A stretch of DNA of 64,000 nucleotides from Amphibalanus amphitrite (lineage: Eukaryota > Arthropoda > Thecostraca > Balanomorpha > Balanidae). Under the pieces are notes generated by a model that saw only the letters and a list, made by a program, of their open reading frames with translations, was not told the origin of the DNA and did not search any database. The position numbers and the translations under genes were made by a program. The stretch covers positions 2,046,001-2,110,000 of the forward strand of contig NW_024881501.1 in assembly GCF_019059575.1 (NCBI RefSeq), in the 5' to 3' direction. Shown here piece after piece: positions 928 to 55,075 of this stretch. The first letter of the stretch is position 1. The number at the start of each line of letters is the position of its first letter.

Positions 928-1171
928 TCAGACGAGCTGTCCGCCGTTGAGCGCCGCCAGGTGGTTGACGATCTCGGCGGCCATGGCCGGCTTGGTGATC
1001 ATGCCCATGTGATCGGCGTCCGGATAGAGTCGGCTGGCCAGCGGCTGGCGCTGCCGGCCGCGCCACGACTCGCACCACTGCAGGCTGCGCAGGTTCACCG
1101 TGCCGTCACCGGCGCCCTTCACCACGTGATCGGGCGAGTCCGGGAACTTGGCCATGTCCGTGTACACCACC
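928..1171 (-). CDS. PLA2G15: PLA2G15-like coding exon 7 (catalytic Asp and His, stop)
   Basis: This exon encodes residues 344-424. FPDSPDHVVKGAGDGTVNLRS carries Asp366; YPDADHMGMI carries His398. A short helix and a TGA at 928-930 follow. The acceptor (TGTATCAG|GGTGGTG) sits at the edge of a minisatellite made of copies of that same acceptor. The copies read CTGTACCAG instead of CTGTATCAG. Confidence 0.92.
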
Positions 1172-4100
1172 CTGATACAGACAGACAGACACGGGTACAG
1201 GTCAGCACGGTCTGTCCGTGTACACCACCCTGGTACAGACAGACACGGGTACCGGTCAGCACGGTCTGTCCGTGTACACCACCCTGGTACAGAGAGGTAC
1301 AGGTCAGCACGGTCTGTCCGTGTACACCACCCTGGTACAGAGAGACAGACACGGGCAGTGCTGGAAATGAGGCCGCTTTCTGGTCCCGGCGTTTTATTCT
1401 CCGGGCGGGTTAAAGGTAGTGTGCCAGCTTTCCTGGACCGTATGGAGTTAATGGCCCAGATAAGGAGAACCGGATTTTTAGAACTTATCCATACCTTCAA
1501 AACTCATGGAAACGTCTTAAATTCTTCAAATTTTGAGTAGGTACCCCAGTGCGAAATTCGCCCCGACGGGTTGTCGGTCGTACCCCAACCACATTTCACA
1601 CCACTATGAACAATAAATGCTTACACTGAAATCGCTATTACCGATATGCTCATCCAATCAAGTTTCGATAAACCCGTTCATCATCATCTCCTGCGGTTCC
1701 GAACACGCCTGTTAGGTGGTGCGGTAGACCGCGCCCAAAGCCAGGGCCCCGGTAACGTGAGGTAGCCGAGTCGGGGCAGCGTGCGCTGACCCAAGCCGGG
1801 GCCGCGCGTCCTCCCGGTGTCATGTGATAGCCCGGGGCTGCCCGCGGGGATGCGGTAGACCGCGCCCAAAGCTGCGGCCCCGGCTTGGGTCAGCGCACGC
1901 TGCCCCGACTCGGCTACCTCACGTTACCGGGGCCCTGGCTTTGGGCGCGGCTTCTGCTCATACTTTGTGGTGCGGTGGTGGTGCGTCGGGCCGCGCGCTC
2001 TGACTTCGGCCAAGAAAAATGCGTCAGCTGATCATTGTCATTTCTGCCACTTGCGTGTGGTGAAATGGGGTCATAACTTAAGAGACGGCTTTTTCATATC
2101 AATTATTTTACATAAAATCATACTTCAAACCATAAATAATGTTCGACAGCCAAATAAAAGAAACAATACCAATACAGGCTTTCAGTTTAAGGCTCGACAT
2201 TGTGTTGTCTACGATTAGACAGCTGATAACTCCTTCCCGTACGTCGTAACTCTATGATGACCTTTGCTTATTGTCACATATGCGCCGCATTCGCGATTGT
2301 TGCCGACGCCTGTTTGCAGCTCAGCCCACTACAGTTGTTATACATATCGAAAAACCGATAAACTTTTAGGCGAAAAAGGCACTATTCCAGGCCCATTTTT
2401 GATTTTTTTGCGATATTAGGTAAAAACAGAAGCTTCTTCTCCTAGGAAAAATAAAATGGGAAATCTTTCAAAGGTGGCACACTACCTTTAATCCCGTCCA
2501 GCGTTTAGCCTTTCGGGACCCACTCAGGGTCGTGGTTGTTTTCGCCGCTCGCCCCAGTCGAGATGCAAAGTTAATAGTCACACGAAGCTTACTTAGGGCC
2601 AGCCAAACCAGCCTAGTCTGGGGTTACTGTTAAATGTATGCATATACCTAGGTGAAAGAAGAAGGTTTTGTACAATCGATTAACCCGCGCCCTGGTGGGG
2701 TCTGTTTATAACGCGACCTGGTGGGGGGGGGGGGCTATTTTTTGCCCCCCCTCGTATCTCCGAAACTACTGGACGGATCCGCAAAATTCAAACGGCGTTC
2801 GAAAGGCCTGTCAAATTTGTCGAGGGAAACCAAATTTCATTGACCTCGGGGTCACCGATGACGTCACAGGTCAGGTCAAAGATGAAATGTTTCACCGTTC
2901 ACGGGTCATCTAGGGAATGCGCTATAACACCGAAGAAAACGCATTTTGTCGAGAATCAGCGATAGGGCGTCAGTTGCCTAGTACATATATTGCTATAAGA
3001 GGTCACTGACAATACCAGGTCACAGGTCAGGTCACCAAGGGTCACAGGTCAGGTCACATGAACCTAACTTTAGGTACTAAGGTTGTGCGATGCATGTTTT
3101 ATGGCCAATTTTTCATTTCCAACTCAATGGTGTTGGTTATAAGACTATCAGGTACGGCTTAGGCCACTTTCTGGTGGAGGTCAGGTCAAGGTCAGGTCAA
3201 AAAAGGTCAAATTTCAAAGTTGATATTTTTGCATAAAATGGGTATTGATTCGATGCAGCTCGTCACGGGGAGTCTAATGGTGGTCTTTGTTTTGCGCTAC
3301 GAGGTCTAGAATTGCAAAAAATTGAGTTTGAAAATTTGACGTCATCAATTTTGAACAGTTTTTTCGCTGTAACTTGGCCAAAAAAAGAGGTATCGATCTC
3401 AAATTTGGTATGTAGATAGAAGGCGGTAAGGACTATCACATATATTCCGGTTTTTTCGAAATTCAAAAAACTTTTTGGATTTTTCGGCTATTATAATCAA
3501 AAAATCTATTTTTTGATTTTTGGGGGTCAAAATCCAAAAATTTCAAAAATCCGAGATAGCAGTTTTGTAGCCCTGTTGATTCTACAGCTTTTATGTCTTT
3601 ATCGTTTTTCTGTATTTGCAAAGCTATAGGCCTGACAGCTCTTCCCGCGAAACCCTTTTTTGGGTCGAAAACGGCAGAACATGACGTCACTCTGACGTCA
3701 TTTCCGGCCAACCTATCATAGCCTTTGGATAAATTTTTGGTCACAATGTGTAAAATTGATGTCCGGGAGGGTACTGAAAGTTTGGTGACGATCGGCGCAG
3801 CGGTTCTGGAGATATATCGAAAAGTCTGGAGGGGGGGGCAAAAAATAGCCCCCCCCCCCACCAGGGCGCGGGTTAATTTCGAAGTCGTACATTCAGAGGC
3901 CCCAAATATACTTCGTGTAACTATCAACTTTGCATCTCGAATGGGCCGAGCGGCGAAAACAACCGCAGTTCTGAGAGGGTCCCGAAAGGCTAAGCGCTAG
4001 ACGGGGCTAGCCCACCCGGAGAATAAAACGCCGGGACCAGAAAGCGGCCTCATTTCCAGCACTGGACACGGGTACAGGTCAGCACGGTCTGTGACTCTAT

Positions 4101-7100
4101 GTACACCACCCTGGTACAGAGAGACACGGGTACAGATCAGCACGGTCTGTCCGTGTACACCACCCTGGTACAGACAGACACGGGTACAAGTACAGGTCAG
4201 GGGGAACACACGCTGCAGTCGCGTTACTAAATGGTTACTAAAAATACTCATTACATACAACCACCATGACTGCACAGACACTACAAGTGACAACAGACCA
4301 GTCTCCCTTCCGTCCCCGTTACAAACACCAACCTCCGGTGTTACCTGTCCCCTCACACACAGACATTGTGTAGCCCACCTCTCGGTGGTGGCCGAGCCGT
4401 TTCCGTAGACGCAGTACATGCTGACGCCGGGCGGCTGGGTGATGTCCAGCAGGCCGGCCGTGTCCTTCCGCATCTCCCAGCCCACCGTATAGTTAATGTC
4501 ACTGAGGGAGAGGGGAGGGTCAGAGACAGGCGCGACACAGGGGGAGGGGAGGGGAGGGTCAGAGACAGGCGCGACACAGCCCACAGGGGCCCACCGTATA
4601 GTTAATGTCACTGAGGGAGAGCGGCGGGTCAGAGACAGGCGCGACACAGGGGGAGGGGAGGGTCAGAGACAGGCGCGACGCAGAGGGAGAGGGGAGGGTC
4701 AGAGACAGGCGCGACACAGAGGGAGGGGAGGGTCAGAGACAGGCGCGACACAGAGGGGGAGGGGAGGGTCAGAGACAGGCGCGACACAGAGGGAGGGGAG
4801 GGTCAGAGACAGGCGCGACACAGAGGGAGGGGAGGGTCAGAGACAGGCGCGACGCAGAGGGAGGGGAGGGTCAGAGACAGGCGCGACACAGAGGGAGGGG
4901 AGGGTCAGAGACAGGCGCGACGCAGAGGGAGAGGGGAGGGTCAGAGACAGGCGCGACACAGAGGGGGAGGGGAGGGTCAGAGACAGGCGCGACACAGAGG
5001 GAGGGGAGGGTCAGAGACAGGCGCGACACAGAGGGAGGGGAGGGTCAGAGACAGGCGCGACGCAGAGGGAGGGGAGGGTCAGAGACAGGCGCGACACAGA
5101 GGGAGGGGAGGGTCAGAGACAGGCGCGACGCAGAGGGAGAGGGGAGGGTCAGAGACAGGCGCGACGCAGAGGGAGAGGGGAGGGTCAGAGACAGGCGCGA
5201 CACAGGGGGAGACGGGGGAGGGTCAGAGACAGGCGCGACACAGGGGGGGGGGGAGACGGGGGGAGGTCGTCTGGTACAGCGGGACACCACGAGGAGAGGG
5301 GAGAGGACGTCGTCTGGTACGGCGGCACACCGGGAGGGTCAGTGATCACCCCGACAATGACATGGATGTTCAGTGGCCCGTGCACACATCAATGCAACGG
5401 GCAGAATCAGCGGTCCAGTTCATCAATCAGTTGGCGTCGCGCCCAGCCCTGGCTCTGACGGCCGGTCACGAGCGGATGATGGATGGCACCGGCCGCCGTC
5501 CCGCCCCGCCTCCACCGGCGAGACAGCAGACAGTTCAACACGGCTGACGGCCGACCCGCCCCACCTCCACCGGCGAGACAGCAGACAGTTAAGCACGGCC
5601 CGGCCGCCATCCCCGTCCATATACAGGCGAGCGGCAGTCAGACAGCGGGCCGAGTCATAACCCGGCCGGCCGGCCGGCCCGGTCACTCACGTGAAGAACT
5701 GCTGCACGTTCTGCAGCGTGTAGTTGGTCTCTGGCGTGCTGAGGAACACGTAGTCCTTGGGCCACGCCTGCGGGCTCGGCGACAGGAACGCCAGGCTGGG
5801 ACTGGTGCGCTGCTCCTGGCGCAGCCGAGAGCCCGACAGCTCCCACACGTTCAGGTTATACCCTGGGGGCACGGAGAGGGGTCACTGCTACCCTGGGGGA
5901 GGACCGGTCACACCTACCCTGGGGGCATGGGCAGCGGCCGCAGGGGTTCCGAGTTCGCCTTATACATCCCTGTTTGTTTCCGCACCATCGCCCGCTTTCA
6001 CCCCACCGAGCGGCATACTTCGCACGCCGATCATACCCGTCACACGGCGGGACTGTCCAGTCCAAACAGGGCTATCGCTATCTCCGAGCGCATCTCTATC
6101 TTCCGAGTCGTTGATTTTGGCGAGATTCCCTGCGCGCCCCAGCGCCGGTGGCGTGAGCGAGCCGACACCAACAGAACCAAACAAAACGGCCGGGATCGAT
6201 CGACCTCCAGATAGTGTCAGCCTCTCCATATATCTGATTGAACTGGAACGGCCAGGAATCCCGTCCCGTCGAGCGCAAAGCTCCTTCCCATTCATCGAAA
6301 ACGAAGGCCGACTGAACGCTAGCAAACAAGACGAACTGGTATTTCGAGTTTGTTTGATCACGGTCAAGCAATAGAAAGAGAAACACTACCTGTTCCTTGA
6401 GACAAATGGTGGGTGGATTTATTTGCCCGCAACACCAGTGAGGAACAGATGCGGCGAATGGCATACCGCTCCCAGCGCCGGGCCGAGCAGCGCTGACCAA
6501 AACTGAGCGGTCATTTTGAGCACCTGCCCCGAGTGTAGGAAGAAGGGATCGGATTTCTACTTGGTCTTACATCAGATGTCTGACAACTGCCTTTCAAATG
6601 ATATGTTACCTCGCTATGCTCAACGTTGACAAATATCCGTAATCACGTTTTACTTTATTTCAGTTCCAACTGATCACCAGCAATTTCCGTTTTCATCTGG
6701 GTGAAGCCGAATCAGTAGTTTTATTGCATAAAACTATAAACTAGTTATCATGTTCATCGCCAGAAGCTTTGGGTAACAAGACACCTTGCTTGTTCTCTAA
6801 AGCGGGAGGGTGAATGGTGGCCAGGGCAGTTCAGACACGGTCCGACAGAGCGCTCAGAGACGCCGTCGCGGCGCTCGACAGGGGCCGCCGGCGCAGACAG
6901 GGGCCGTCCGGTAACCCCGGGATCCCTCCCCTCACTGTGACGGGAGGGAGCGGCCGGTGATCCCGCCGCCGTCAGACACCTCTGATAATCCCGCCGCGGT
7001 CACAGCATCTGATAATCCCGCAGCGGTGACCCGCAGAGGTGACACACCAGAGGTGCCTCCGAGGCCCCGGTCAGCCAGAGGTCGCCGGCCTCCCGGCTAT

Positions 7101-10100
7101 ATTTGTCGCCCACCTCGGACCGGACAGGTGCAAAATACTTTCATAGCAAAGTCAAATGTGAGCCGGATAGCGGGCCACTATCGGTCGTCCGTCCCGGGGC
7201 GCCCGCCGCCCGGCGGACGCGGCCCACTACATACTTACACGTCGGACGGACGGCAAACAAACAACGGAGGCCGCAGCCTGATAGAGCGCCGTTCCAACGG
7301 GGCCGCATCGCATTACATCGAGAGCCTCCCGGCAGGCGTCCGGCCGAATTACAGGGCAGCAGCGGGTCCGTCACCCCGACCCGACCCGACCCACATCTCA
7401 GCGGCGCGCCAGTCATCGCCGGTCCCACCCCTTCACCCAGCGGGGCCGTCACCCCGACCCACAGGGCCCGCCACCCCGACCCACAGGGCCCGCCACCCCG
7501 ACCCACAGGGCCCGCCACCCCGACCCACAGGGCCCGTCACCCCGACCCACAGGGCCCGCCACCCCGACCCCATCCCTCCCCGGTCCGCGGCCGTCCCCCA
7601 TCCCCAGGCTTCTGCTGCGCAGCCGGCGGCGGACCCCTTCCACCAGGGGCGCGCCTCCGTCCCTGTACCGTACCCGATCCCGTCCGACCACCGCCGGCCG
7701 TACTGCATCCCACCGCCGCCCGTACCGCACCGCGCGCTCCCACCGAGCGGCGTACCGTCCCGCTCCCACCGGGCGGCGTACCCCCTTCCGTCGCTCACCT
7801 GCGGCGTACACCTCGTAGGAGAGCGCCGTGCCGGCGAACGGTCCGGCCAGCGACACCCACTGTTCGATGAACTTGTCCTTCCAGGCCTGCGGCCGCGAGT
7901 GCAGCCAGTGCAGCGTCAGCGGGCAGCCGTAACTGTGTGTCACCAGCACCACGCGCCGGTTGGCGTTCCGGTAGTACACCTGCTCCGTCAGCCGCGTCAG
8001 GTTGGCCAGGAACACGCCCAGCTCGTCTGCCGGTGGCGGCGGGGGCGGGGGGCGTCAGGGGAGGGTCCGGGGAGGGTCCGGGGGGTACCGAGTGGTGGGG
8101 TAGGACCGGGGAGCCGGGTCGTAGGGGACAGGGTCAGAGGTGAGGGACGAGTCCCTCCGCCAGGGCGGGAGGTCTCGTTTGAGGTAATGGCATACTACAG
8201 CCGTGTACGCCCAGTGAATGCAGTGATATGCGCATCTCAGAAACAGTGCGTGTGACAATGGGCAGTATGAGCCGCTTGGTACAGTGCGACCGCACACCAA
8301 ACTATTTCGTAAAGACTCGTCATAGGTTTAACCACTTTGTCCGGTTGTTAACGAAGAAAGATTACAGATGTTGTTCGAACGCGCTGAGGCCTGAGACAAA
8401 GTGCCAAGTCGTCACGATTTCGGAGTGCTACTCAGGTACGGTAAGCACGAGATCTGGAGAAAGTGAGCGTTCCATCCCTGTCAAATCTGAAGACGGGACT
8501 CGGTCCACCGGAAATGAATCACCCGAAAAGGACCGGTTCTTAGCGGAATGTAGTTAAACCATTACCCAGTACCCCATTCTTGATGACTTCTCGAGGTCCA
8601 GGGCATACAAGGGTAACCTAAACTGAATGAATCCAGCGGTCGCCCTCGTGCATACATTGCACGACAAGTCGCAGCGACAGAGTCGTGCCGTCGTCTGCCA
8701 GCTAGGCATCAGACAACGAGTCGACAACATGTCACGGCAGTCAGCTCCACCCCGGTGGCCGCCCCGCGTCATGTCTCGCCGCGCCGCGCCGCATCTGCAT
8801 AGCAGGCCGGTGGTGCATCGTGTGCCGTCACATGGCCCGAGTCGGTCCATCCGTCACCGGCCCGTTTGAACCCTGACGCAGGTACAGAGCCGTCTCGTAA
8901 CTCAATTGACAGGGTGTTTGGACTCCCGACGGTGAGAGCCCCGGTTCGGGTTGCTCCGGCACTCCATGAATGAGGCTCGTGACGGGGATGGTCTGCAGTT
9001 GGTGGGAGCAGCCGCAGCCAGTTGAGTGGGACAGGCCGTGTCCGGCTTTGAAAGGCACGTTAAACTTTGACATCTAAAAACTCCCATTAGCCGGCATTGC
9101 GCGATCTGACGATAGGGGTCGGGGTCTACGCAACAGTCTCTGCTTAGCGCGGGCTCCGGCTCTGTCAATCCGTCCACTCAAGGGTCCAAGCTGACTTCAC
9201 TTTATTAAAAGAGCCGGCCGGTGCATTGTAGTGTTGAACCGTCAAATGTCAATTATCAGCCAGTTCTGGGACCCAGGTCAGCCAATGTCTGTCTGGGACA
9301 CAGGTCAGCCAGTGTGTGGCACACAGCCGTGTCGGCGGGGACATGTGTACTGGTGCGACGCAGAGCAAACCAGCCGCCCCGCCCCCCGGAGGGCGCACAG
9401 CCGGTGACGTCAGAGCTGTGACGTCACCGGGAGGGCGGGGACCGCCAGTGCGCAGATACACACGGCGTGTCGGGAGAACAACAACAAAGGACCCTATTTC
9501 CCGGTCCCACGTTATGCAATGTCCTCCGTCCGTACAGACGACAGCTTTGTTTATTGGGGATTAAGGGCGCTTCGACTGCAAAAGTCGTTTTGATTTTTGC
9601 TTACGGACGACAGCATGATATGAAACGTTTTTAATTTCAACGTAGTTTGGATGCATCAATCAATGGTTTGAAACGTCAGATACAGCTTTTGGGCTCTGTC
9701 TAAGAATAAAGAAAGAATGTAACTGCTTTGAAAATGATGGGACAAAAGCCTTTTTAACACCGATCTTTAACACCGATCAATTCTCTTTAACACCGAAACT
9801 GGTTTAGATTCTAACCGGTTTACATGATTAAGTTCAAAGCGCAGCGACAGTAGACACCAATTACCAACCACATCATAAACTGAGGAAACGAAGGGGGTTT
9901 CATAGCATATTCATAATAATGCCTGGATCTTGAAGAAGTACTTTGGACTTTGGCGTTTCACAAAAGACGCGCCCTACTGTCCTGTGTCAACAGATAAGTC
10001 TCACCACACGCTTATTTATATACCGGGCCAAGATATAGCGCATGCAGTAGGCTACGGCTCACAAATAAATGTATCACAGTTTTATAAACAGCCTATTTTG

Positions 10101-13100
10101 CAACGATTAAAAAAAAACATGGGTAGCCAGGTTGTCTCCGTCCCTATCTATAAATTGGCTAAGACATGCTAGGATAATACGTAGTCGAAAGCTACATACA
10201 GCAGCTAGCACAAATGAAACTCTGGCCATTACTGGCCAGGGTGCTGGTTTACCTCGCACCTACAGTGCTTGCAAACCTACTACATAAGCCACCGTACGTG
10301 ACCCATGTTGAGGCGCGGTAGGCTGGTATCCATTATCGGGTTTCGCTCGGCGTAACGGTCAGCAGTGGCAGGGAAGTGGCACATGAAATTAACCCAGTAC
10401 CAGGCGGCGTAGAGGGACCCCAGGGGGCGGCCCACGGGTCCGGGACCTCGTCCACGGGGACAGACAGTGGCCCGTGGCACTGGGGTACCGGACCGGGTGT
10501 CGGCAGTGACACTGGCGTACCAGACCGGGTGTCGGCACCAGCAGTGACACTGGGGTACCAGACCGGGTGTCGGCACCAGCAGTGACACTGGGGTACCAGA
10601 CCGGGTGTCGGCAGTGACACTGGCGTACCAGACCGGGTGTCGGCACCAGCAGTGACACTGGGGTACCGGACCGGGTGTCGGCACCAGCAGTGACACCGGG
10701 GTACCAGACCGGGTGTCGGCAGTGACACTGGGGTACCAGACCGGGTGTCGGCACCAGCAGTGACACTGGGGTACCAGACCGGGTGTCGGCACCAGCAGTG
10801 ACACTGGGGTACCAGACCGGGTGTCGACAGTGACACTGGGGTACCAGACCGGGTGTCGGCACCAGCAGTGACACTGGGGTACCAGACCGGGTGTCGACAG
10901 TGACACTGGGGTACCAGACCGGGTGTCGGCAGTGACACTGGGGTACCAGACCGGGTGTCGGCACCAGCAGTGACACTGGGGTACCAGACCGGGTGTCGGC
11001 AGTGACACTGGGGTACCAGACCGGGTGTCGGCACCAGCAGTGACACTGGGGTACCAGACCGGGTGTCGACAGTGACACTGGGGTACCAGACCGGGTGTCG
11101 GCAGTGACACTGGGGTACCAGACCGGGTGTCGGCACCAGCAGTGACACTGGGGTACCAGACCGGGTGTCGGCAGTGACACTGGGGTACCAGACCGGGTGT
11201 CGGCACCAGCAGTGACACTGGGGTACCGGACCGGGTGTCGGCACCAGCAGTGACACTGGGGTACCAGACCGGGTGTCGGCACCAGCAGTGACACCGGGGT
11301 ACCAGACCGGGTGTCGGCAGTGAAGGGTTCCGCCGGAGGACGGACGGCGCCGATACCGCCCGGGTGGCGGGCTCCATGAGTAGTGTGCTGGGGAGCTCGG
11401 GGCCGGGGGCGCGGCGGCCCGGCCCGCCGACACTGTACCCCGGAGACGGGCCGCCGTCCGTCCGTCCGTTCGCCGGTCAGATAGGGCGCCTGTGACCGGC
11501 GGGGGGGGGGGGGGTGAACGGAGGACATGTAAACACGGCGTCAACACCGTGCCGGCACACAGCGGACCCCACACCCGCGGCCGGCCGGCGCCGCGTTATG
11601 TAACACTCGGCCAGTGTGGGCCGGCGGCGCCCCGGGATCCCTCCACACAGCCGCGTCACCCAGGCTATTCCGCTGAATCGCTTTATGATGATAGCAGAAC
11701 GTTATATAATGTGGCTGCTGCAGTGCGAGTGCACTGGATTAACTGTAGCCTGGCCGCCCGGCGGCGACCACTGCGGCAGGAGCCCCCGCTGAGGCTCCAT
11801 CCGAGTTCCGCGGCGGGACCGGGTCTCTGCGGCCGGGCGCCGGTGGGAGCCGGGGAGTCGGCGCTGGCTGACCGCAGCGCTGCCGACGGGCTGAGATCGG
11901 CCAATGAGCTCTGATTGCCTTCACAACCGGGCTACGTACAGGCCTCCACTCCTTTCCATCCCCACCGCCTAGCGTCATTGAAGCCCTCCCCCCCCCCCCC
12001 CCCGGCACTCACTGGGCGCCTTTCGGAAGTGGTACGGCGCCCCCTCCCCCCCCCCCTCCCCCGGCACTCACTGGGCGCCTTTCGGAAGTCTTACGGCGCC
12101 CCCCCCCCCCCCTCCCCCCGGGCACTCACTGGGCGCCTTGCGGAAGTCGTACGGCGCGCCGACCACAACCCCCCCCCCGGGCACTCACTGGGCGCCTTTC
12201 GGAAGTCGTACGGTGCCCCCCCCCCCCCCCTGGCACTCACTGGGCGCCTTTCGGAAGTCTCACGGCGCCCCCTCCCCTCCCCCCGGCACTCACTGGGCGC
12301 CTTGCGGAAGTCGTACGGCGCGCCGACCACGTCCACATTGCGGGTGTAGTTGAGCTGGGTCACCATGTTCTCCACGATGTGGTAAAAGTACTGCGTGTAC
12401 GAGAAGAAGATGCTGTTCCAGTCGCTGAGGTTCTCGATGGTGTCGGTGGTGCCGAATCCGGGCACCACCGTCTCCACGCCAGGCGTGTTGTACGTCTTGC
12501 GGTCGGTGATGTTGTAGGTCAGCTTCATGTTGTCCACCTATGGGGCGGATAGGCGGGAACGGGGTCAGCCTCAGCACCTGAGTGGTACCATCTCAACTCA
12601 ACTCCACAACATGACATACATAACAAACACGTAGCAAAAAAGTGCACATGCAGTATAACACATGCAGTTACACAATGAGGAATGTGTTTGAGTAACTATG
12701 TGTTTATAGCTTTTGGTTTATACTTATGTTAATTGTTTTTGGTTAGAAGCTAACACTGAGCAAAATGGCCAGCACTGAGCATTATTTGCACATCATGAGC
12801 ATGTCAAATGACACAATGAGCCTGCTGGACAAATGCTACACATGGCTAGGCTAAACTGCATTCAACATTTCTGGTGATTAGCTGAGGTACAGGATGCCTT
12901 TTATCAGGCAGGCTGTGAACAGGTATTGATGAGTTCACCAGTACTTATCGAAGGTCAGATAACTCACAAAGCAGTCCATGAACTTGCTGAACAGGACATC
13001 CAGGTTGAGCCAGAGCAGGTAGAAGGATGTGTGCTGGTAGCACCAGTAGTGAGGTCCGGATGTTTTGTTCAGCTTGGCCATCATCTTTGAGCCCCCATCA

Positions 13101-14640: not shown

Positions 14641-14807
14641 TCAAGGCTGCAAAGATATCAGATGCGTTTCGCGTGCACAATTTTTTATCGCAGCCAGAAA
14701 TGACAAACAATACCAAGGTTCTCAAATTGTTATGTCTAAAGCGCGGACAATTTTAAATTTGAGAAAAGCGATTATTACTCGATGAAATTCAAAGAGGTGT
14801 CCTAACC

Positions 14808-15119
14808 TAACCTAACCTAACCTAACCTAACCTACTGATTTTTGCCTACCGAGCTTAGAAACCTAACCTAACCTACTGATTTTGCCTACCAGGCATAAAG
14901 AAACCTAACCTAACCTAACCTAACCTAACCTACTGATTCTTGCCTACCGGGAATCCTAACCTAACCGAACCTAACCTAACCTAACCTAACCTAACCTACT
15001 GATTTTTGCCTACCAGGCATTAAGAAACCTAACCTAACCTAACCTAACCTAACCTACTGATTCTTGCCTACCGGGAATCCTAACCTAACCTAACCTAACC
15101 TAACCTAACCTAACCTACT
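14808..15119. repeat. Interstitial TTAGG (CCTAA) telomere-type repeat with regular spacers
   Basis: Runs of 2 to 9 CCTAA units alternate with spacers of the form CTACTGATTTTTGCCTACC plus a few bases (14834, 14873, 14930, 14996, 15054, 15117). TTAGG is the ancestral arthropod telomere repeat. The spacer-punctuated structure indicates an internal satellite rather than a chromosome end. Confidence 0.85.
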
Positions 15120-15161
15120 GATTTTGCCTACCGGATAAGGAAATAGTTACTTGCAGGAATA

Positions 15162-23393: not shown

Positions 23394-24808
23394 TCTACTA
23401 TTATAAATCTTAAAAAGTCCGCCGCCGCCGCCGCCGTCGGGGTTACGCAGTCGGTGTTACTCCCAAAAACGCCTATTGCAAAGCCGTCGATTGACGCAGG
23501 GGGGTGAAATTTTCACGACTCGTGGGTCACGTAATTCAACAGGTCGTATTAAATTTTGGGCACGATTCGGCCGGGGGTGCGCCCGTGGCGCGAGCTCATC
23601 TGCGCCATAGGGTTAGCATTAGAATCGCGACCGGCGCCGAGCAGAGGGCACGTGCTTTAGGCTCAGTTGTTCGCTTAAAAAACTGAGTGGAAATAATCAG
23701 AGCCGGCAGGTCATTGACCTTTGACAACGAAGGCCGACACAGGGCACCGCTCGCCAAGGGGATTCGCCAGTAAATACAATTAATTTGTTTTTGCAATATC
23801 TCAGCCGTTTCTGGGCCGATTTAGCTGAAACTTGGAATGTCGGTGGCAGTGTAGGGTAGGGTTGGGTAGGGTAGGGTAGGGTAGGGTAGTGTAGGGGTAG
23901 GGTAGGGTGTGGTAGGGTAGGGTAGGTTAGGGTAGGATAGGGTAGGGTAGGGTAAGGTAGGGTAGGGTAGGGTAGGGTAGGGTAGGGTAGTAGGGTAGGG
24001 TAGGGTAGGGACTAGGGTAGGGTAGGGTAGGGTAGGGTAAGGTAGGGTAGGGTAGGGTAGTGTAGGGTAGGGTAGGGTAAGGTAGGGTAGGGTATGGTAG
24101 GGTAGTAGGGTAGGGTATGGTAGGGTAGGGTAGGGTAGGGTAGAGTTAGGTAGGGTAGAGTTCGGTAGGGTGGGGTAGGGTAGGGTAGGATAGAAGGGTA
24201 GGTTAGGGTAGTAGGGTAGGGTAGGGTAGGGTAGGGTAGGGTAGAGTAGGGTAGGGTAGTAGGGTAGGGTAGGATAGGGTAGGGTAGTAGGGTAGGGTAG
24301 GGTAGGGAAGGGTAGGATAGTAGGGTAGGGTAGGGTAGGGTGGGGTAGGGTAGGGTAGGGTAGGGTAGGGTAGTGTAGGGGTAGGGTAGGGTAGGGTAGG
24401 GTAGGGTAGGGTAGTGTAGGTAGGGTAGGGTAGTGTAGGGTAGGTTAGGGTAGGGTAGGGTAGGGTAGGGTAGGGTAGGGTAGGGTAGGGGTAGGGTAGG
24501 GGTAGGGTAGGGTAGTGTAGAGTAGTGTAGGGTAGGGTAGGGTAGGGTAGGGTAGGGGTAGGGTAGGGTAGTGTAGGGTAGGGTAGGGTAGGGTAGGGTA
24601 GGGGTAGGGTTAAGTTCAAAAAGGGCCTAACATACAAAACACTTGAACACCCCGCACCTATCACCAACCCTTACAGTTTAATTAAAAACAGCTACCCAAA
24701 TCTACCCAAATAATACATCTAAAAATACAAGTCAATCACCCAAACTAATGCACCCGTAACATAACATAAATCAAAACATACAGTTATCGCGTGAACCTGT
24801 ACCTCTAG
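23394..24808 (+). repeat. Helitron-like unit 1
   Basis: 5' block 23394-23850, pentanucleotide core about 23851-24610, 3' block to CTAG at 24805-24808. The 5' block carries the GACGCAG / GGGTGAAATTTTCA segment once (type 1). Confidence 0.75.
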
Positions 24809-26347
24809 TCTACTATTATAAATCTTAAAAAATCCCACGCCGCCGTCGGGGTTACTCCCAAAAAGGCTTATTACGGCGCCGTCGATTGACGCAGGAGGGT
24901 GAAATTTTCACGACTCGTGGGTCACGTCATTCAACAGGTCGTATTAAATTTTGGGCACGATGCGGCCGGGGGTGCGCCCGTGGCGCGTGCTCATGTGCGC
25001 CATAGGGTTAGCATTAGAATCGGCATAAACACTTATTAAACAGGCTATTGCTCGGAAACGGTGAGGGCTACGGGGGTGAAATTTTCATGCCAAGTCGAGC
25101 GCGTGCACTCATTTGTCGTATTAAATTTTCGACGGTGTGGGTTCAGCGGTGTGCACGTGGTGGGGCCGCGACCGGTGCCGAGCAGAAGGCACGTGCTCTA
25201 GGCTCAGTTGTTCGCTTAGAAAACTGAGTGAAAAGCATCAGAGCCAACGAAGGCCGACACAAGGCACCGCTCGCCAAGGGGATTCGCCAGTAAAAACAAT
25301 TAATTTGTTTTTGCAATATCTCAGCCGTTTCTGGGCCGATTTAGCTGAAACTTGGACTGTCGGTGGTAGTGTAGTGTAGGTTAGGGTAGGGTAGGGTAGG
25401 GTAGGGTAGGGTAGGTGATTGTAGGGTAGGGTTGGGTAGGGTAGGGGATTGTAGGGGATTGTAGGGTAGGGTAGGGTAGGGTAGGGTAGAGTTAGGTAGG
25501 GTAGGGTAGGGTAGGGTAGGGTAGGGTAAGGTAGGGTAGGGTAGGGTAGTGTAAGGGTAGGGTACGGTAGGGTAGGGTAGGGTAGGGTAGGGTAGGATAG
25601 GGTAGGGTAGTGTAAGGGTAGGGTAGGGTATGGTAGGGTAGGGTAGGTTAGTGTAGGAGTAGGGTAGGGTAGGAGTAGGGTAGGGTAGGAGTAGGGTAGG
25701 GTAGGGTAGGGTAGGGTAGGGTAGTGTAAGGGTAGGGTATGGTAGGGTAGGGTAGTGTAAGGGTAGGGTAGGGTAGGGTAGGGTAGGGTAGGGTAGTGTA
25801 AAGGTAGGGTAGGGTAGGGTATGGTAGGGTAGGGTAGGGTAGGAGTAGGGTAGGGTAGGGTAGGGTTAGGGTAGGGTAAGGTAGGGTGGGGTAGGGTAGG
25901 GTAGGGTAGGAGTAGGGTAGTGTAGGGTAGGGTAGGGTAGGTAGGTCAGGGTAGGGTAGGTAGGGTAGGGTAGGGTAGTGGTAAGGTAGGGTAGGGTAGT
26001 GTAGTCATAGTGTAGGGGTAGGGTAGGGTAGGGTATGGTAGGGTAGGGTAGGGTAGGGTAGGGTATGGTAGGGTAGGGTAGGGTAGGGTAGTGTAGGGGT
26101 AGGGTAGGGTAGGGTAGGGTAGGGTAGGGTAGGGTAGGGTAGGGTTGCGTTCAGTAACATCTTAACTTACAAAGGGCTCGAAGAACTCGCATGCATCACC
26201 ATCATACTTTACAGTTCAATTAAAAGCAGTTACCCACTTCTACAAAAAAACATACCAATAAAAATGCAAGTTTCTACACCCAAACTAATGCATCCGTTAA
26301 TCATACATATCAAAACATACAGTTATCGCGTAAACCTGTACCTCTAG
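24809..26347 (+). repeat. Helitron-like unit 2
   Basis: The 5' block is longer than in unit 1 because a related GGGTGAAATTTTCA segment occurs twice (24897 and 25071). The core is about 25371-26145. The 3' block is a diverged subtype shared with unit 6 (GTAACATC...CATGCATCACC). Confidence 0.75.
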
Positions 26348-27745
26348 TCTACTATTATAAATCTTAAAAAGTCCGCCGCCGCCGCCGTCGGGGTTACGCA
26401 GTCGGTGTTACTCCCAAAAACGCTTATTGCGGCGCCGTCGATTGACGCAGGAGGGTGAAATTTTCACCACTCGTGGGTCACGTAATTCAACAGGTCGTAT
26501 TAAATTTTGGGCACGATGCGGCCGGGGGTGCACCCGTGGCGCGTGCTCATGTGCGCCATAGGGTTAACATTAGAATCGCGACCGGCGCCGAGCAGAGGGC
26601 ACGTGCTTTAGGCTCAGTTGTTCGCTTAAAAAACTGAGTGAAAAGCATCAGAGCCGGCAGGTCGTTGACCTTTGACAACGAAGGCCGACACAGGGCACCG
26701 CTCGCCAAGGGGATTCGCCAGTAAATACGATAAATTTGTTTTTGCAATATCTCAGCCGTTTCTGGGCCGATTTAGCTGAAACTTGGACTGTCGGTGGTAG
26801 TGTAGTTTAGGGTAGGGTAGGGTAGGGTAGGGTAGGGTAGGGTAGGGTAGGGTAGGGTAGGGTATGGGTAGGGGTAGGATAGGGTAGGTTAGTGTAGGAG
26901 TAGGGTAGGGTAGGGTAGGGGTAGGGTAGGGTAGTGTAGGGGTAGGGTAGGGTAGGGTAGGGGTAAGGTAGGGTAGGGGTAGGGTAGGGTTGGTAGGGTA
27001 GGGTAGGTTAGGGGTAGGGGTAGGGTAAGGTAGGGTAGGGTAAGGTAGGGTAGGGTAGGGTAGGGTAGTGTAAGGGTAGGGTAGGGTAGGGTAGGGTAGG
27101 GTAGGGTAGGGTAAGGTAGGGTAGTAGGGTAGGGTAGGGACTAGGGTAGGGTAGGGTAGGGTAGGGTAGGGTAGGGTAGGGTAGGGTAGGGTAGGGTAGG
27201 GTAGGGTAGGGTAGGGTAGGGTAGGGTATGGTAGGGTAGTAGGGTAGGGTATGGTAGGGTAGGGTAGAGTTAGGTAGAGTAGAGTTAGGTAGGGTAGGGT
27301 AGGGTAGTAGGGTAGGTTAGGGTAGTAGGGTAGGGTAGGGTAGGGTTGGGTAGGGTAGGGTAGTAAGGTAGGGTAGGGTAGGGTAGAGTAGGGTAGGGTA
27401 GTAGGGTAGGGTAGTAGGGTAGGGTAGGGTAGTAGGGTAGGGTAGGGTAGGGTAGTAGGGTAGGTTAGGGTAGGGTAGGTTAGGGTAGGGGGTAGGGTAG
27501 GGTAGGGGGTAGGGTAGGATAGGGTAGAGGTAGGGTAGGGGTAGGGTTGACTTCAAAAAGGGCCCAACATACAAAACACTTGAACACCCCGCAACTATCA
27601 CCATCCCTTACAGTTCAATTAAAAACAGCTACCCAAACCTACCCAAATAATACAGCTAAAAATACAAGTCAATCACCCAAACTAATGCACCCGTAACATA
27701 GCATTAATCAAAACATACAGTTATCGCGTAAACCTGTACCTCTAG
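26348..27745 (+). repeat. Helitron-like unit 3
   Basis: Type 1 5' block, core about 26798-27548, and a standard 3' block (GGGCCCAACATACAAAACAC). Confidence 0.75.
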
Positions 27746-29047
27746 TCTACTATTATAAATCTTAAAAAGTCCGCCCACGCCGCCGTCGGGGTTACGCAGC
27801 CGGCGTTACTCCCAAAAACGCCTATTGCGGCGCCGTCGATTGACGCACGAGGATGAAATTTTCACGACTCGTGGGTCACGTCATTCAACAGGTCGTATTA
27901 AATTTTGGGCACGATGTGGCCGGGGGTGCGCCCGTGGCGCGTGCTCATGTGCGCCATGGGGTTAGCATTAGAATCGCGACCGGCACCGAGCAGAGGGCAC
28001 GTGCTTTAGGCTCAGTTGTTCGCTTAAAAAACTGAGTGGAAATAATCACAGCCGGCAGGTCATTGACCTTTGACAACAAAGGCCGACACAAGGCACCGCT
28101 CGCCAAGGGGATTCGCCAGTAAATACAATTAATTTGTTTTTGCAATATCTCAGCCGTTTCTGGGCCAATTTAGCTGAAACTTGGACTGTCGGTGGTAGTG
28201 TAGTGTAGGGTTGGGTAGGGTAGGGGTAGGGGTAGGGTAGGGTAGTTAGGGGTAGTGTAGGGTAGGGTATGGTATGGTATGGTATGGTAGTGTAGAGTAG
28301 GGTAGGGTAGGGTAGGGTAGGGTAGGTAGTTTAGGGTAGGGTAGGGTAGGGTAGGGTAGGGTAGGGACTAGGGTAGGGTAGGGTAGGGTAAGGTAGGGTA
28401 GGGTAGGGTATGATAGGGTAGTAGGGTAGGGTAGGGTAGGGTAGGGTAGAGTTAGGTAGGGTAGGGTAGGTTAGGGTAGAGTTAGGTAGGGTAGGGTAGG
28501 GTAGGTTAGGGTAGTAGGGTATAGGGTATGGTAGGGTAGGATATGGTAGGGTAGGGTAGGGTAGGGTAGGGTAGGGTAGGGTAGGGTAGTAGAATAGGGT
28601 AGGGTAGGGTAGGGTAGGGTAGGGTAGAGTAGGGTAGGGTAGAGTAGGGTAGGATAGGGTAGGGTAGGGTATTAGGGTAGGGTAGGGTAGGGTAGAGTAG
28701 GGTAGGGTAGTAGGGTAGGGTAGGGTAGGGTAGGGTAGGGTAGGGTAGTAGGGTAGGGTAGGGTAGGGTAGGGTAGTAGGGTAGGGTAGGGTAGTAGGGT
28801 AGGGTAGGGTAGGGTAGGGGTAGGGTAGGGTAGGAGTAGGGTAGGGGTAGGGTTGAGTTCAAAAAAGGCCCAACATACAAAACACTTGAACACCCCGCAA
28901 GTATCACCATCCCTGTTCAATTAAAAACAGCTACCTAAATCTACCCAAATAATACAGCTAAAAATACAAGTCAATCACCCAAACTAATGCACCCGTAACA
29001 TAACATAAATCAAAACATACAGTTATCGCGTAAACCTGTACCTCTAG
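27746..29047 (+). repeat. Helitron-like unit 4
   Basis: Type 1 5' block, core about 28196-28855, standard 3' block. A short run of GGTAT units lies at 28268. Confidence 0.75.
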
Positions 29048-30133
29048 TCTATCTATATTATAAATCCTAAATAATCCGCCGCCGCCGCCCACGCCGTGTG
29101 CGACGTAGTCACTTTGTAGCGCTTATTGCGGCGGCGTCTGTTGACCTACGGCCGTGAAATTTTACAGCAATGTGGGCCACCTTTACACGTAGGTCGTATT
29201 AAATTTTGGACATGATGCGGCCGGGGGTGCGCCCGCGGCGCGTGCTCACGTGCCCATAGGGTTAACATTAGAATCGGCAAAAACACGCTATTGCTCGGGA
29301 ACGGTAAGGGCTACGGGGGTGAAATTTTCACTGCAAGTCGGACGCGTGCACTCATTTGTCGTATTAAATTTTCGAGGGGGTTGGTTCAGCGGTGTGCACG
29401 TGGGCGGGCCGCGACCGGCGCCGAGCAGAGGGCACGTGCTTTAGGCTCAGTTATTCGCTTAGAAAACTGAGTGAAAAGCATCAGAGCCAACGAAGGCCGA
29501 CACAAGGCACCGCTCGCCAAGGGGATTCGCCAGTAAATACAATTAATTTGTTTTTGCAATATCTCAGCCGTTTCTGGGCCGATTTAGCTGAAACTTGGAC
29601 TGTCGGTGGAAGTGTAGTGTAGTGTAGTGTAGGGTAGGGTAGGGTAGGGTAGGGTAGGGTAGTGTAGTGTAGTGTAGTGTAGTGTAGTGTAGTGTAGTGT
29701 AGTGTAGTGTAGTGTAGTGTAGTGTAGTGTAGTGTAGTGTAGTGTAGTGTAGTGTAGTGTAGTGTAGGAGTAGGGTAGGGGTAGGGGTAGGGTAGGGTAG
29801 GGTAGGGGTAGGGTTGAGTTAAATAGGGCCTAGGGTAGGGTAGGGTAGGGTAGTGTAGTGTAGTGTAATGTAGTGTAGTGTAGTGTAGTGTAGGAGTAGG
29901 GTAGGGGTAGGGGTAGGGTAGGGTAGGGTTAGGGTAGGGGTAGGGTTGAGTTAAAAAAGGGCCTAACATACAAAAGACTTGGACACTCCGCAACTATCGC
30001 TATTATATTAAAAACAGCTACCCAAATCTACCCAAATAATACAGCTAAAATACAAGCTACTCACCCAAACTAATGTATCCGTCACATATAATTAATCAAA
30101 ACATACAGTTATCGCGCAAACCTGTACCTCTAG
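29048..30133 (+). repeat. Helitron-like unit 5 (type 2, TAGTG-rich core)
   Basis: The 5' block begins with the type-2 segment (GTGCGACGTAGTCACTTTGT). The core is largely TAGTG (29640-29770) and is partly duplicated, with a truncated 3' motif (GGGTTGAGTTAAATAGGGCC) in its middle. The sequence ACTGTCGGTGGAAGTGTAG here is the intact form of the site that is interrupted in unit 7. Confidence 0.75.
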
Positions 30134-31617
30134 TCTATATTATAAATCCTAAATAATCCGCCGCCGCCCACGCCGTGTGCGACGTAGTCACTTTGTAGCG
30201 CTTATTGCGGCGGCGTCTGTTGACCTACGGCCGTGAAATTTTACAGCGATGTGGGCCACCTTTACACGTAGGTCGTATTAACTTTTGGACATGATGCGGC
30301 CGGGGGTGCGCCCGCGGCGCGTGCTCGCGTGCCCATAGGGTTAACATTAGAATTGGGAAAAACACGTTATTGCTCGGGAACGGTAAGGGCTACGGGGGTG
30401 AAATTTTCACTGCAAGTCGGACGCGTGCACTCATTTGTCGTATTACATTTTCGAGGGGGTTGGTTCAGCGGTGTGCACGTGGTGGGGCCGCGACCGGCGC
30501 CGAGCAGAGAGCACGTGCTTTAGGCTTAGTTGTTCGCTTAAAAAACTGAGTGGGCCGGCAGGTCATTGACCTTTGACAACGAAGGCCGACACAAGGCACC
30601 GCTCGCCAAGAGGATTTGCCAGCAAATACAATTAATTTATTTATGCAATATCTCAGCCGTTTCTGGGCCGATTTAGCTGAAACTTGGACTGTCGGTGGTA
30701 GTGTAGGGTAGGGTAGGGTAGGGTAGGGTAGGGTAGGGTAGGGTTGGGTAGGGGATTGTAGGGTAGGGTAGGGTAGGGAATTGTAGGGTAGGGGTAGGGT
30801 AGGGTAGGGTAGGGTAGGGTAGGGTAGGGTAGTGTAGAGGTAGGGTGGGGTAGGGTAGGGTAGGGTAGGGTAGGGTAGGGTAGGTTAGGGTAGTGTAGGG
30901 TAGGGGTAGGGTAGGGTAGGGTAAGGGTAGGGTAGGGTAGTGTAAGGGTAGGGTAGGGTATGGTAGGGTAGGTTAGGGTAGGGTAGGGTAGGGTAAGGTA
31001 GGGTATGGTAGGGTAGGGTAGGGTAGGGTAGGGTAGGGTAGGGTAGGGTAGGGTAGGGTAGGGTAAGTTAGGAGTAGGGGTAGGGGTAGGTAGGGTAGGG
31101 TAAGGTAGGGTAGTGTAAGGGGGAAGGGTAGGGTAGTGTAACGGTAGGGTAGGGTAGGGTAGGGTATGGTAGGGTAGGGTAGGGTAGGGTAGGGTAGTGT
31201 AGGGGTAGGGTAGGGTAGGGTAGGGTACAGTAGGGTAGGGGTAGGGGTAGGGTAGGGTAGGGTAGTGTAAGGGTAGGGTAGGGTAGGGTATGGTAAGGTA
31301 GGGTAGTGTAGGGGTAGAGGTAGGGGCAGGGTAGGGTAGGGGTAGGGTAGGGTAGGGGTAGGGTAGGGGTAGGGTAGGGTAGGGTAGGTTAGGGGTAGGG
31401 TAGGGTAGGGTAGGGTTGAATTGAGTAACATCCTAACTTATTAAGGGCTCGAACAACTCGCATGCATCACCATCATACTTTATAGTTCAATTAAAAGCAG
31501 TTACCCAGTTCTACACAAATAATACCAATAAAAATGCAAGTTTCTACACCCAAACTAATGCATCCGTCTATCATACATATCAAAACATACAGTTATCGCG
31601 TAAACCTGTACCTCTAG
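30134..31617 (+). repeat. Helitron-like unit 6 (type 2)
   Basis: Type 2 5' block, core about 30697-31416, and the diverged 3' block it shares with unit 2. Confidence 0.75.
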
Positions 31618-33001
31618 TCTATATTATAAATCCTAAATAATCCGCCGCCGCCGTGTGCGACGTAGTCACTTTGTAGCGCTTATTGCGGCGGCGTCTGTTG
31701 ACCTACGGCCGTGAAATTTTACAGATATGTGGGCCACCTTTACACGTAGCTCGTATTAAATTTTGGACATGATGCGGCCGAGGGTGCGCCCTTGGCGCGT
31801 GCTCGCGTGCCCATAGGGTTAACATTAGAATCGGCAAAAACAGGCTATTGCTCAAAAACGGTAAGGGCTACGGGGGTGAAATTTTCACGTCAAGTCGAGC
31901 GCGTGCACCCATTTGTCGTATTAAATTTTCGAGGGTGTGGGTTCAGCGGTGTGCACGTGATGGGGCCGCGACCGGCGCCGAGCAGAGGGCACGTGCTTTA
32001 GGCTCAGTTGTTCGCTTAAAAACCTGAGTGAAAATAATCAGACAACGAAGGCCGACACAAGGCACCGCTCGCCAAGGGGATTCGTCAGTAAATACAATTA
32101 ATTTGTTTTTGCAATATCTCAGCCGTTTCTCGGCCGATTTAGCTGAAACTTGGACTGTCGGTGGCAGTGGCGGCGGATTCGATTTTGGCGTGGGGGGGGG
32201 GGGGGGCAAGATCCCAGACCGAGATGATATCATAGGTGGATCAGAAAGGTGGTTTCGAGGCTGCTGGTATATACCCCCCCCCCCAAAAAAAGTCCCCAAA
32301 ATCCAAAAACTCCTCGCATTTTTATTCCCTACGTACGTACTGCTGAGCATTTGAAAGCCAAAAAAAAAAAAAGTTTTATTATAAGAAAACATATTTTTGT
32401 CTAATCAGGGCGTTGCGGGAAAGTAATAACTATCAATTTCCTCTCACTGGATCCGCAAATGGACGCTGTAACGATTTTTGTACCGCTGTATTAGAATAAG
32501 TTCCAACGGGAAATTTTGTGCCATAGGCAGATGGCATATCAGATGTTGAAGAACGGAACTAAACTTAAGGAAAAAGGTGAGCGCTTGAGCGCTATTTTTC
32601 AATGAGGTAACTCGGTACCATTTTCTCTGTTCATGTTACATTCGATTTCCGTTCAACGTTCCCTCGATATCATGAGACAGATATCAACTGAAGCTATAGC
32701 TCATAGCATGAGAAGACCGCTTACCATACTTTCAGAGGCAAACGGTCGCAACTAAACCTATTGGGACAGCAATCCGCCAGCTAAACCCACCTCAAGAAAG
32801 TGGTTCGTAAACTAAACTCACCGAGACGGGCTGTCTCGGTTTATACAGCAAGCCTACAGCGAGGCTTAAATAAGCCCAAACACTTGTCGGGCTAGAGTGA
32901 GGGAACGGAGGGCTAAGGCAAGGGAGCGGCGGGCTAGGGCGAAGGAACGGAGGATTGGGACGAGGATCCAGTAGCTGTGAGTGGGCGTTATTTCATTAGG
33001 G

Positions 33002-33190
33002 CCTTATGGCTGAAACAGACTTTCCGCGTTCAGGAAATCGCATGCGAGAGCCTATTCAAATACATTATGTATAATTCTTCCCGCATCAATCGCATCCGGG
33101 AGGTGCGTGCGATTGATGCGAGCGTGCTTCCATGTATTTGAATAGGCTCGCGCATGCGATTTCCTGACTGCGGAAAGAGTCTGTTTCAGG
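33002..33190. mobile_element. Small MITE with about 60-bp inverted repeats
   Basis: 33010-33065 and 33133-33190 are inverted repeats (CTGAAACAGACT.TTTCCGC outward; GGAAATCGCATGCG inward). CATTAGGG flanks both sides (32994-33001 and 33191-33198), giving an 8-bp duplication. The left repeat contains a ~7-bp insertion. A CGCATCAATCGCA / TGCGATTGATGCG stem lies in the middle. Confidence 0.8.
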
Positions 33191-33462
33191 CATTAGGGTA
33201 CGCAGACTGCGGTAAGGTCGACTATTATCACATCAAATTTTGACACCACGTCTGTTTACTCGAGAATCAGCCGCCAGTGATATCTGCAAAGACGACGCAT
33301 ATCCGACCCAGATTCAGCCGAGTCAGAGCGCCTCAGGTGGCGTGACTTTAATTTCAGTTTCACATGTCAAACGACCTGAGTACAGCCACTGCAACCACTA
33401 TTTTTATTGTGCTGTGGTTTATTTTTATTGTGCTGTGACTTTGGCCGTAAATGACTTTAGCC

Positions 33463-33874
33463 GGTCCCGTAGCTCAATTGGTAGAGCGTTGGACTCCGCA
33501 TGGTGAGAGCACGCGTTCCCGGTTATAACAGTCCGGGTTCGAAGCGCGACGGGCGCTTGACATTTATGGGCCTCCTGACAGGTATGGCTGCGGTTGGTGG
33601 AAGGCCGTAGCCAGGCGAAGTCAGTGAGGGGACCGGCCGTGCGCGGCTATGTGCGCACGTTAAACTTTGGACTCTAAATTCTGCCATAGAACTGGAATTG
33701 CGCGATCGGAGGGTAGAGGGCAGGGTCACCGCAACAAGCTTCGCTTAGCGTTGGCTCTGTCCTTGTGAATCCTTCCTATCAAAAGGTTCGGACTAAATTT
33801 ATAGAAAAAAAAAATGGACATGCCCCGTGGCTGATATGGTGAATAAATGAAATAAACGAAATGAAATGAAATGG
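33463..33874 (+). mobile_element. tRNA-derived SINE copy 2
   Basis: The head has a clear A box (TAGCTCAATTGGTAGAGC) and B box (GGGTTCGAAGC) with an insertion between anticodon and T arms, so it is not a functional tRNA gene. The body (GCACGTTAAACTTTGGACTC, GCGCGATC, CTTCGCTTAGCG) matches the copy at 8887. The tail is a short AAATG repeat (33840-33874). Confidence 0.8.
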
Positions 33875-35389
33875 CTGGATCTATTGTAGGGCTATTTTGC
33901 CGAATGACCTCGTCCATTGACTTAACAACTTTGATGTGACCCAGGGAGGGTTGAAACCTATTGGGCTTCTTTTTGTCGCATGATCGCGCAACGTTTAGTC
34001 TACAGATGGATTCAGGAAAAGCGATCACGAGATCCATTCGTCTGTTTTGGAATGAGAGGGAGGCCCACTAATGGTCAGTGCCCCCCCCCCCAAAAAAAAA
34101 CTTTCCAACTTTTTTTTACAAATTTCATCAGTCCTAACTACCCGCAAGCGAATGGCAAGCCCTTCCGTCTCCGCTCGCCTGAGATTTGGAATTTACCAAA
34201 TAGCGGTAAACGACCACTGAAGGTCGGAGCTGCGTCTCTTGCACACTTAGAATGTCTCAAAATCGAAGCTGGAAGGACAAAAAACTGCTTTAAAGCGGAA
34301 ATCGTTGCCATTTAATGTATTCCAAAGTGACGGTTAGACCAACTGTATGGGCGCATAGGTACAATATTAGGTTATGGAAATTCTCCTCATGTTTAGGGCA
34401 CAAACTATGGAGGGGCAAAATATACGTTTGCCACTCCTCCAAAAGTTTCGTAGGTGACGAGTCGACGACGCTTCCTCTGCCGCCCCGTATCCGTCGCCCC
34501 TAAAAGCGGCCATTTAAGGCCTGGGCTGCCGCTGCGTCACGTTGACGCTTATGCTTATATTGCCTCTAAAACGAGTTTGAGGAGAGGGAAACTTCTATTG
34601 AACGCAAACGCTTGTCATTTAAGAAAGGCAACGTATGATATAGTATATGGGCATCTGATAACACCTTCAGAATTCAGATGATCGAACAAAATTAATATAT
34701 GGCTTCTTGTCAAAGTTTTATGTCACAAATTATGGGGGGGCAAAAAGATACTTTTGCCCCCCCACGAGTTTGCCAGGGGGGGCAGCTGCCCCCTCTGCCC
34801 CCCCGAATCCGCCGCCCCTGGTCGGTGGAAGTGTAGTGTAGGGTAGGGTAGGGTAGGGTAGGGTAGGGTAGGGTAGGGTAGGGTAGTGTAGTGTAGTGTA
34901 GTGTAGTGTAGTGTAGTGTAGTGTAGTGTAGTGTAGTGTAGGAGTAGGGTAGGGGTAGGGGTAGGGGTAGGGTAGGGTAGGGTAGGGTAGGGGTAGGGTT
35001 GAGTTAAAATAGGGCCTAGGGTAGGGTAGGGTAGGGTAGGGTAGGGTAGGGTAGGGTAGGGTAGGGTAGGGTAGGGTAGGGTAGGGTAGGGTAGGGTAGG
35101 GTAGTGTAGTGTAGTGTAGTGTAGTGTAGTGTAGTGTAGTGTAGGTGTAGGAGTAGGGTAGGGGTAGGGGTAGGGTAGGGTAGGGTAGGGTAGGGGTAGG
35201 GTTGAGTTAAAAAAGGGCCTAACATACAAAAGACTTGGACACTCCGCAACTATCGCTATTATATTAAAAACAGCTACCCAAATCTACCCAAATAATACAG
35301 CTAAAATACAAGCTACTCACCCAAACTAATGCATCCGTCACATATAATTAAGCAAAACATACAGTTATCGCGCAAACGTGTACCTTTAG

Positions 35390-54908: not shown

Positions 54909-54965
<57 letters not shown>

Positions 54966-55000
54966 CAGAGACAGACAGAGACAGAGACATTGAGATAAAC

Positions 55001-55075
<75 letters not shown>

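Follow-up and report, generated by a model that had tools for sequence, protein, structure and literature searches.

The end of exon 3 of a PLA2G15/LPLA2-like gene is present, together with its 5' splice donor, in six tandem copies at positions 12321-11984 on the minus strand of the window, which is the whole stretch of 64,000 nt of DNA that was analysed. Here it is proposed that this array is, quite probably, a minisatellite crossing a splice junction (a 'mirage') in an otherwise intact arthropod gene, a by-product of repeat-rich introns in which donor 1 would be used and the other copies would be near-neutral.

The PLA2G15-like gene and its exon 3 donor array

The PLA2G15/LPLA2-like gene is intact, with seven exons on the minus strand (13456-13333, 13107-12968, 12537-12294, 8026-7799, 5862-5691, 4501-4379 and 1171-928), an open frame of 424 aa and six introns, all of them GT-AG. 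The predicted protein matches LCAT in Pfam (5.8e-58) and, in a PDB search, group XV phospholipase A2 (4x90, 2.8e-92), in an alignment that spans the junction RKAP|N. When the genome was searched with Pfam LCAT, six candidates were scored and two matches returned, both of them exons of this gene. In the gene model, exon 4 (7799..8026, minus strand) supplies the acceptor that pairs with the exon 3 donors, and the placement of that acceptor at 8026 in the earlier note fits the alignment of RKAP|NELGVF with RRAP|NENGPY of group XV phospholipase A2. The seven-exon model, built from the frame and the PDB alignment, needs no exon from the array.

Exon 3 (12294..12537, minus strand) ends in the authentic donor 1, CGCCCA|GTGAGTGCC, as placed by the gene model, Pfam LCAT and PDB 4x90. 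The six copies that the earlier note had reported were found with the same last exon bases (12294, 12241, 12189, 12130, 12072 and 12013) and with spacings of 53, 52, 59, 58 and 59 nt, within the 52-59 bp given there, and TRF detected the array independently (11984-12321, period 59, 6.0 copies, score 455). The sequence CGCCCA|GTGAGTGCC is unchanged in 6/6 copies, and 19 nt, AAGGCGCCCAGTGAGTGCC, are invariant across all of them. The separators, described previously as poly-C, are on the coding strand G runs of up to 16. Copy 1 (12285..12322, from frame analysis and copy alignment) includes the exon end with the real donor and is followed, also on the minus strand, by copy 2 (12232..12269), copy 3 (12180..12217), copy 4 (12121..12166), which opens a second block of three copies, copy 5 (12063..12100) and copy 6 (12004..12041). 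An exon part of about 35 nt per copy, as previously estimated, holds for copy 4 (37 nt), whereas copies 2, 3, 5 and 6 carry about 28 nt. A DNA search of the 807.6 Mb assembly, which skips very common words and is therefore no proof of rarity, found the array at one place. The sole other DNA match (58 bits, contig C96) looks by eye like an SR-repeat exon terminus that has a donor and a G run of its own.

Across the 37 aligned columns of the array (-29 to +8), six are variable, all within the first 19, and none lies among the last 18, around the donor; selection could also produce this absence. Copy 4 is identical to copy 1 over 46 nt, including exon sequence absent from copies 2, 3, 5 and 6, one change is common to copies 2 and 5, and single copies have private changes. 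The CGCAAG/CGAAAG difference, common among the copies, is synonymous in the exon, so the direction of change is not fixed. The simplest course would be that the exon 3 end was copied twice early and that the resulting block of three was duplicated in turn (3+3). That the array grew by tandem duplication across the splice junction, as had been suggested from the repeat itself, is well supported by the private changes, this nested history and the copying at other junctions described below.

The same features bear on whether the array was produced by the assembly, either through expansion of poly-G or through head-to-tail joining of two alleles with three copies each. In favour of an artefact, G runs of up to 16 pose difficulties for sequencing, and the blocks 12330-12169 and 12166-11993 have 90% alignment identity with G-run indels counted, near the 92-98.7% found in the main aligned stretches of four compared haplotype pairs. 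On the same side, the assembly contains uncollapsed haplotype pairs while the PLA2G15-like gene was found at one place. Against such an artefact are the private substitutions in the copies, the start of block 2 inside the exon end and not with the whole exon, and the occurrence of junction arrays at several genes, one of them with a transposon within it, and this explanation is very unlikely. Two of the uncollapsed pairs, C160/C461 and C8/C391, differ by 1-8% and are usable for testing differences in repeat number.

The minisatellite reading supposes that the introns in this genome region are rich in tandem duplications, probably formed via slippage or template switching at G-rich tracts. Where a duplication reaches over the end of an exon, that exon would survive with its true site while extra copies accumulate within the intron, and the surviving outcomes would be those that keep one good exon with its site.

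Consequences of each donor

Use of donor 1 gives the protein of 424 aa. Donor 3, 105 nt downstream, is in frame and would give 459 aa, with an insert of 35 aa that contains a second GAPYDFRKAP. Donors 2 (+53 nt) and 4 (+164 nt) shift the frame and reach an early stop in exon 4 (196 and 233 aa, respectively). The stop codon at 12093 begins 201 nt past donor 1, which bears out the previously noted frame open for about 200 nt, and donors 5 (+222 nt) and 6 (+281 nt) lie beyond this in-frame stop and give 236 aa. Thus, only donors 1 and 3 keep the frame, and 2/6 donors keep the protein. The earlier proposal of a ladder of donors that adds GAPYDFRKAP peptides is then only weakly possible, feasible at donor 3 and failing at donors 2, 4, 5 and 6, which reach stops.

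An identical 9-mer is present in all six donors, so site strength gives donor 1 no preference. Predicted RNA accessibility is low at all six, and donor 1 ranks lowest for the 6-mer +1..+6; RNA structure was therefore rejected as a reason for preferring donor 1, which is predicted to be no more accessible than the other five. As judged from the sequence, donor 1 is most likely the site used, since with donor 3 it is the sole protein-keeping donor and it is placed by homology. Exon size and transcription order are both plausible candidate factors in this choice. The five other copies are most likely near-neutral decoys, yielding at most low-level transcripts that would be in frame (donor 3) or would meet an early stop.

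A functional role, in which competing use of the six identical donors would adjust the protein through donor 3 or lower expression through stops and nonsense-mediated decay, is unlikely. All six donors are intact and identical over 19 nt, and the contrast between an in-frame donor 3 and four donors that lead to stops would suit such regulation. G runs next to donors are a setting in which hnRNP H/F act, and G runs adjoin each donor here. Tandem repeats at the boundaries of human paralogs do change splicing, according to PMC2812944. On the other side, frames are not kept by design, given unit lengths of 52-59, and the donor columns have no special conservation in the far larger TPRG1-like array described below. 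Furthermore, RT-PCR of lancelet globin genes and earlier Adh3 data, as given in PMC3087553, suggested regular splicing.

Other copied junctions and repeats in the window

Two acceptors of the same gene are also copied. The acceptor of exon 6, together with 21 exon nt, CTCCCTCAG|TGACATTAACTATACGGTGGG, has one extra copy 109 nt upstream (first base 4610), and an intron 5 minisatellite of 34-bp units (4501..5252, minus strand) contains the pyrimidine tract of this acceptor. The exon 7 acceptor and exon start, TACCAG|GGTGGTGTACACGGAC, are part of 54-bp units at 1155..1347 (minus strand), with copies at 1229, 1283 and 1331 that include 16 nt of exon; the real exon 7 site is TATCAG at 1171. If used, the acceptor copies at 4610, 1229, 1283 or 1331 would lead to stops, as indicated by frame analysis. 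Two more copies of the 54-bp unit are found at 4065..4188 (minus strand), beyond a transposon at 1356..4064 with inverted ends of 57 nt (96%) and a flanking 8-bp duplication, CCCGTGTC, read by eye. This element, which we take to belong to the hAT-like family, has inserted within the exon 7 acceptor array, which must therefore predate it.

Further repeats were observed in the window. Intron 3 of the PLA2G15-like gene contains a 24-copy minisatellite of 38 bp with CCCCAG (10474-11319), for which no source exon was recognised. TTAGG-type pentamer repeats are present within the contig at 14801-15143 with a higher-order unit of 124 bp, and a series of long GGTAG-type pentamer arrays, of up to ~150 copies each and with starts ~1-4 kb apart, extends over 23851-36515. 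At 54447-60894, inverted flanks encode the same peptides on opposite strands around the frame 57646-58530, which by eye resembles part of a Penelope-like element. The window was scanned against Rfam and for tRNAs with no match, and Rfam scans of pieces L007-L026 gave none either.

Copied junctions in neighbouring genes

With 200 kb around the window added, a joined stretch of 264 kb on one contig was obtained, of which 5,000 bases read N. Minisatellites of period at least 12 make up 9.6% of it (124 non-overlapping arrays), and six 6-kb pieces from elsewhere in the genome have 4.4%. Tandem junction copies were found in two of the three neighbouring genes, TAT and a TPRG1-like gene, with 0/10 in HOIP.

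TAT was identified by PDB 3dyd (9.5e-78). A human probe served to place its 11 exons, ten of them with matches at E 0.005 or better; exon 3 (E 37 only) was retained for its position and splice signals. Its copied donors are those of exon 1 (three copies, C4:1994879-1995052), exon 6 (four copies of a 51-bp unit, C4:1986374-1986571) and exon 9 (two short copies). The TPRG1-like gene matches hSac2 (7.5e-11), and three of its exons were located with a probe (E 2.6e-15, 7.8e-6 and 0.009). Here one donor is present about 55 times, another donor twice and an acceptor four times. The large array (C4:1967882-1969628) consists of ~55 tandem 33-bp units derived from the exon end ATCACACC|GTGAGTGGGG, each of which contains the final 8 bases of the exon and the donor GTGAGTGGGG or a close variant. 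It has 55 anchors including the real one, of which 49 are alignable, with GT in 49/49; a stricter criterion gives 42 copies. In the 49 of 55 copies compared (six were dropped for more than 7 mismatches or for length), conservation is not significantly higher in the donor columns than elsewhere (p = 0.30), in a test whose anchor on the donor biases it towards conservation. Selective conservation of decoy donors was rejected on the basis of this 55-copy array.

HOIP/RNF31 was recognised by its UBA_HOIP, IBR_1 and E3_UbLigase_RBR domains, and splice-site scores at coding-segment ends were used to set its junctions. Six of these ten, in pieces b, c and f, lack Pfam support (of the three pieces the scan covered c, with no match). 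Together with TAT exon 3, these pieces leave 8/47 junctions on weak or no homology, and 0/8 of them are copied.

Copying at junctions and in introns

A junction was counted as copied when it recurred, with at least 10 bases on each side, within 2 kb. The sample comprises 47 modelled junctions of four genes on the one 264 kb stretch of one contig: 12 of PLA2G15, 20 of TAT, 5 of the TPRG1-like gene and 10 of HOIP. An 18+18 nt window had missed the TAT donor copies because of indels in their intron parts, and shorter windows were used for the final tests. An annotation-free first pass, antisense segments included, gave 3/29 donors and 4/28 acceptors, compared with ~10% at random points.

Nine of the 47 junctions are copied, comprising 6/22 donors and 3/25 acceptors and distributed as three each in TAT, the TPRG1-like gene and PLA2G15 and none in HOIP. 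The same test returned 1831/6000 and 1751/6000 at random intron points, and 9/350 and 4/350 at exon-interior points (1-3%). Because this pooled intron control (30%) samples all four genes with equal frequency and is pushed up by the TPRG1-like gene, gene-specific, complexity-filtered intron rates are preferred (about 0.12 for TAT, 0.68 for TPRG1-like, 0.19 for PLA2G15 and 0.12 for HOIP), from which 9.25 copied junctions are expected. The TPRG1-like rate is dominated by the donor array itself; without this gene, 6/42 junctions are copied against 5.8 expected. PLA2G15 is in the sample because it was chosen for its array, and 6/35 junctions are copied when it is left out.

These counts bear on a directed mechanism, in which splice junctions, through R-loops or splicing-coupled breaks, would be hot spots of tandem duplication. 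Three of the 12 PLA2G15 junctions are copied, and in the unfiltered profile copying is most frequent 25-100 nt into the intron: of 47, 8 at +12, 14 at +25, 17 at +40, 15 at +60 and 17 at +100, followed by 12 at +150, 9 at +200 and 13 at +300. There may thus be mild clustering of copying within ~100 nt of exons, since +40 and +100 (17/47 each) exceed +200 (9/47). Junctions themselves, however, are copied about as often as intron (9 observed, 9.25 expected) and do not look targeted, and the same agreement is seen without the TPRG1-like gene. Junctions as duplication hot spots were accordingly rejected, and a directed mechanism is highly improbable. Inside exons, the unfiltered counts fall from 9 at the junction to 6 at 12 nt, 3 at 25 nt and 0 at 40 nt. 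Taken together, the profile suggests that intronic minisatellites spill over junctions and that exons are protected.

Tentatively, and with rather less confidence than in the origin of the exon 3 array, junction-crossing minisatellites might be routine in the genes of this arthropod, given that about 1/5 of the junctions sampled are copied, with up to ~55 donors, and they would supply competing identical sites. If so, they would form a permanent pool from which alternative donors, stop-containing transcripts and new introns could arise, as well as a natural test of spliceosome choice among many equal sites. Arrays of identical donors (6 in PLA2G15 and ~55 in the TPRG1-like gene) raise the question of how one of many equal 5' splice sites is chosen, which is sharpest in the TPRG1-like gene. 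Intron gain by tandem duplication can likewise draw on junction arrays as raw material.

Comparison with known systems

The exon 3 array is a real case of a known kind, the mirage, probably in a phylum new to it, and most likely follows from repeat-rich introns. The term denotes tandem duplications that cross exon-intron boundaries in the globin genes and Adh3 of lancelets; two haplotypes of BflGb6 have 6 and 3 units, and RT-PCR suggested that splicing is undisturbed (PMC3087553). PMC3902484 adds PGBD5 and TnC. In both papers, the lancelet cases (Adh3, BflGb6, BflGb9, PGBD5 and TnC) have, as here, minisatellite-like repeats that span an exon-intron boundary at the donor or acceptor side, in several units and with AG/GT kept in many copies. 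The exon 3 array consists likewise of boundary-spanning tandem units with kept splice signals (6/6 donors) and an intact frame (424 aa). In contrast to the lancelet mirages, its host is probably an arthropod, outside the known lineage Cephalochordata, which extends the taxonomic range and has no bearing on structure; the donor ladders here reach ~55 units of 33 bp, and they are known from genomic sequence alone. The Chitin_bind_4 cuticle domain (PF00379) gave 150 scored matches among 705 candidates in this genome, a count inflated by allelic copies. This cuticle family is typical of arthropods, a point that the 14 control genomes (at least two of them bacteria) do not test, and a lancelet source was set aside on the strength of the count. 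The TTAGG-type repeats at 14801-15143 are in agreement, TTAGG being the telomere repeat of arthropods. The name 'mirage' was not found in the open-licence literature for such arrays outside lancelets.

Introner-type intron-generating elements are also repeated sequences that carry splice sites. Unlike them, near-identical copies dispersed in many genes were not seen, the array having been found at one place in a search that skips very common words.

Repeats that cross exon-intron boundaries also occur outside lancelets. In recently duplicated human genes, internal tandem repeats occur at exon-intron boundaries, with units of 9-126 bp among the coding-sequence intron cases, 27 intron modifications after manual check and transcript support for changed splicing (PMC2812944). 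The position of the repeats is alike; the human ones vary between paralogs, partly form new introns and have known transcripts, whereas here a gene at a single place is described from genomic DNA. In the potato RdRp gene, according to PMC4974935, a tandem duplication extends over an intron-exon boundary and gives rise to new potential splice sites, as in the present gene, whose copies in contrast lie within an old intron, with no new intron or recruited exon in the gene model. In Daphnia pulex, introns are much poorer than other regions in repeats with units of more than 8 bp (PMC3152781), and the introns examined here, unlike those of Daphnia, are repeat-rich. The presence of mirages in a probable arthropod, at about the rate expected from intronic repeats, suggests that such arrays follow predictably from very repeat-rich introns and are no lancelet curiosity.
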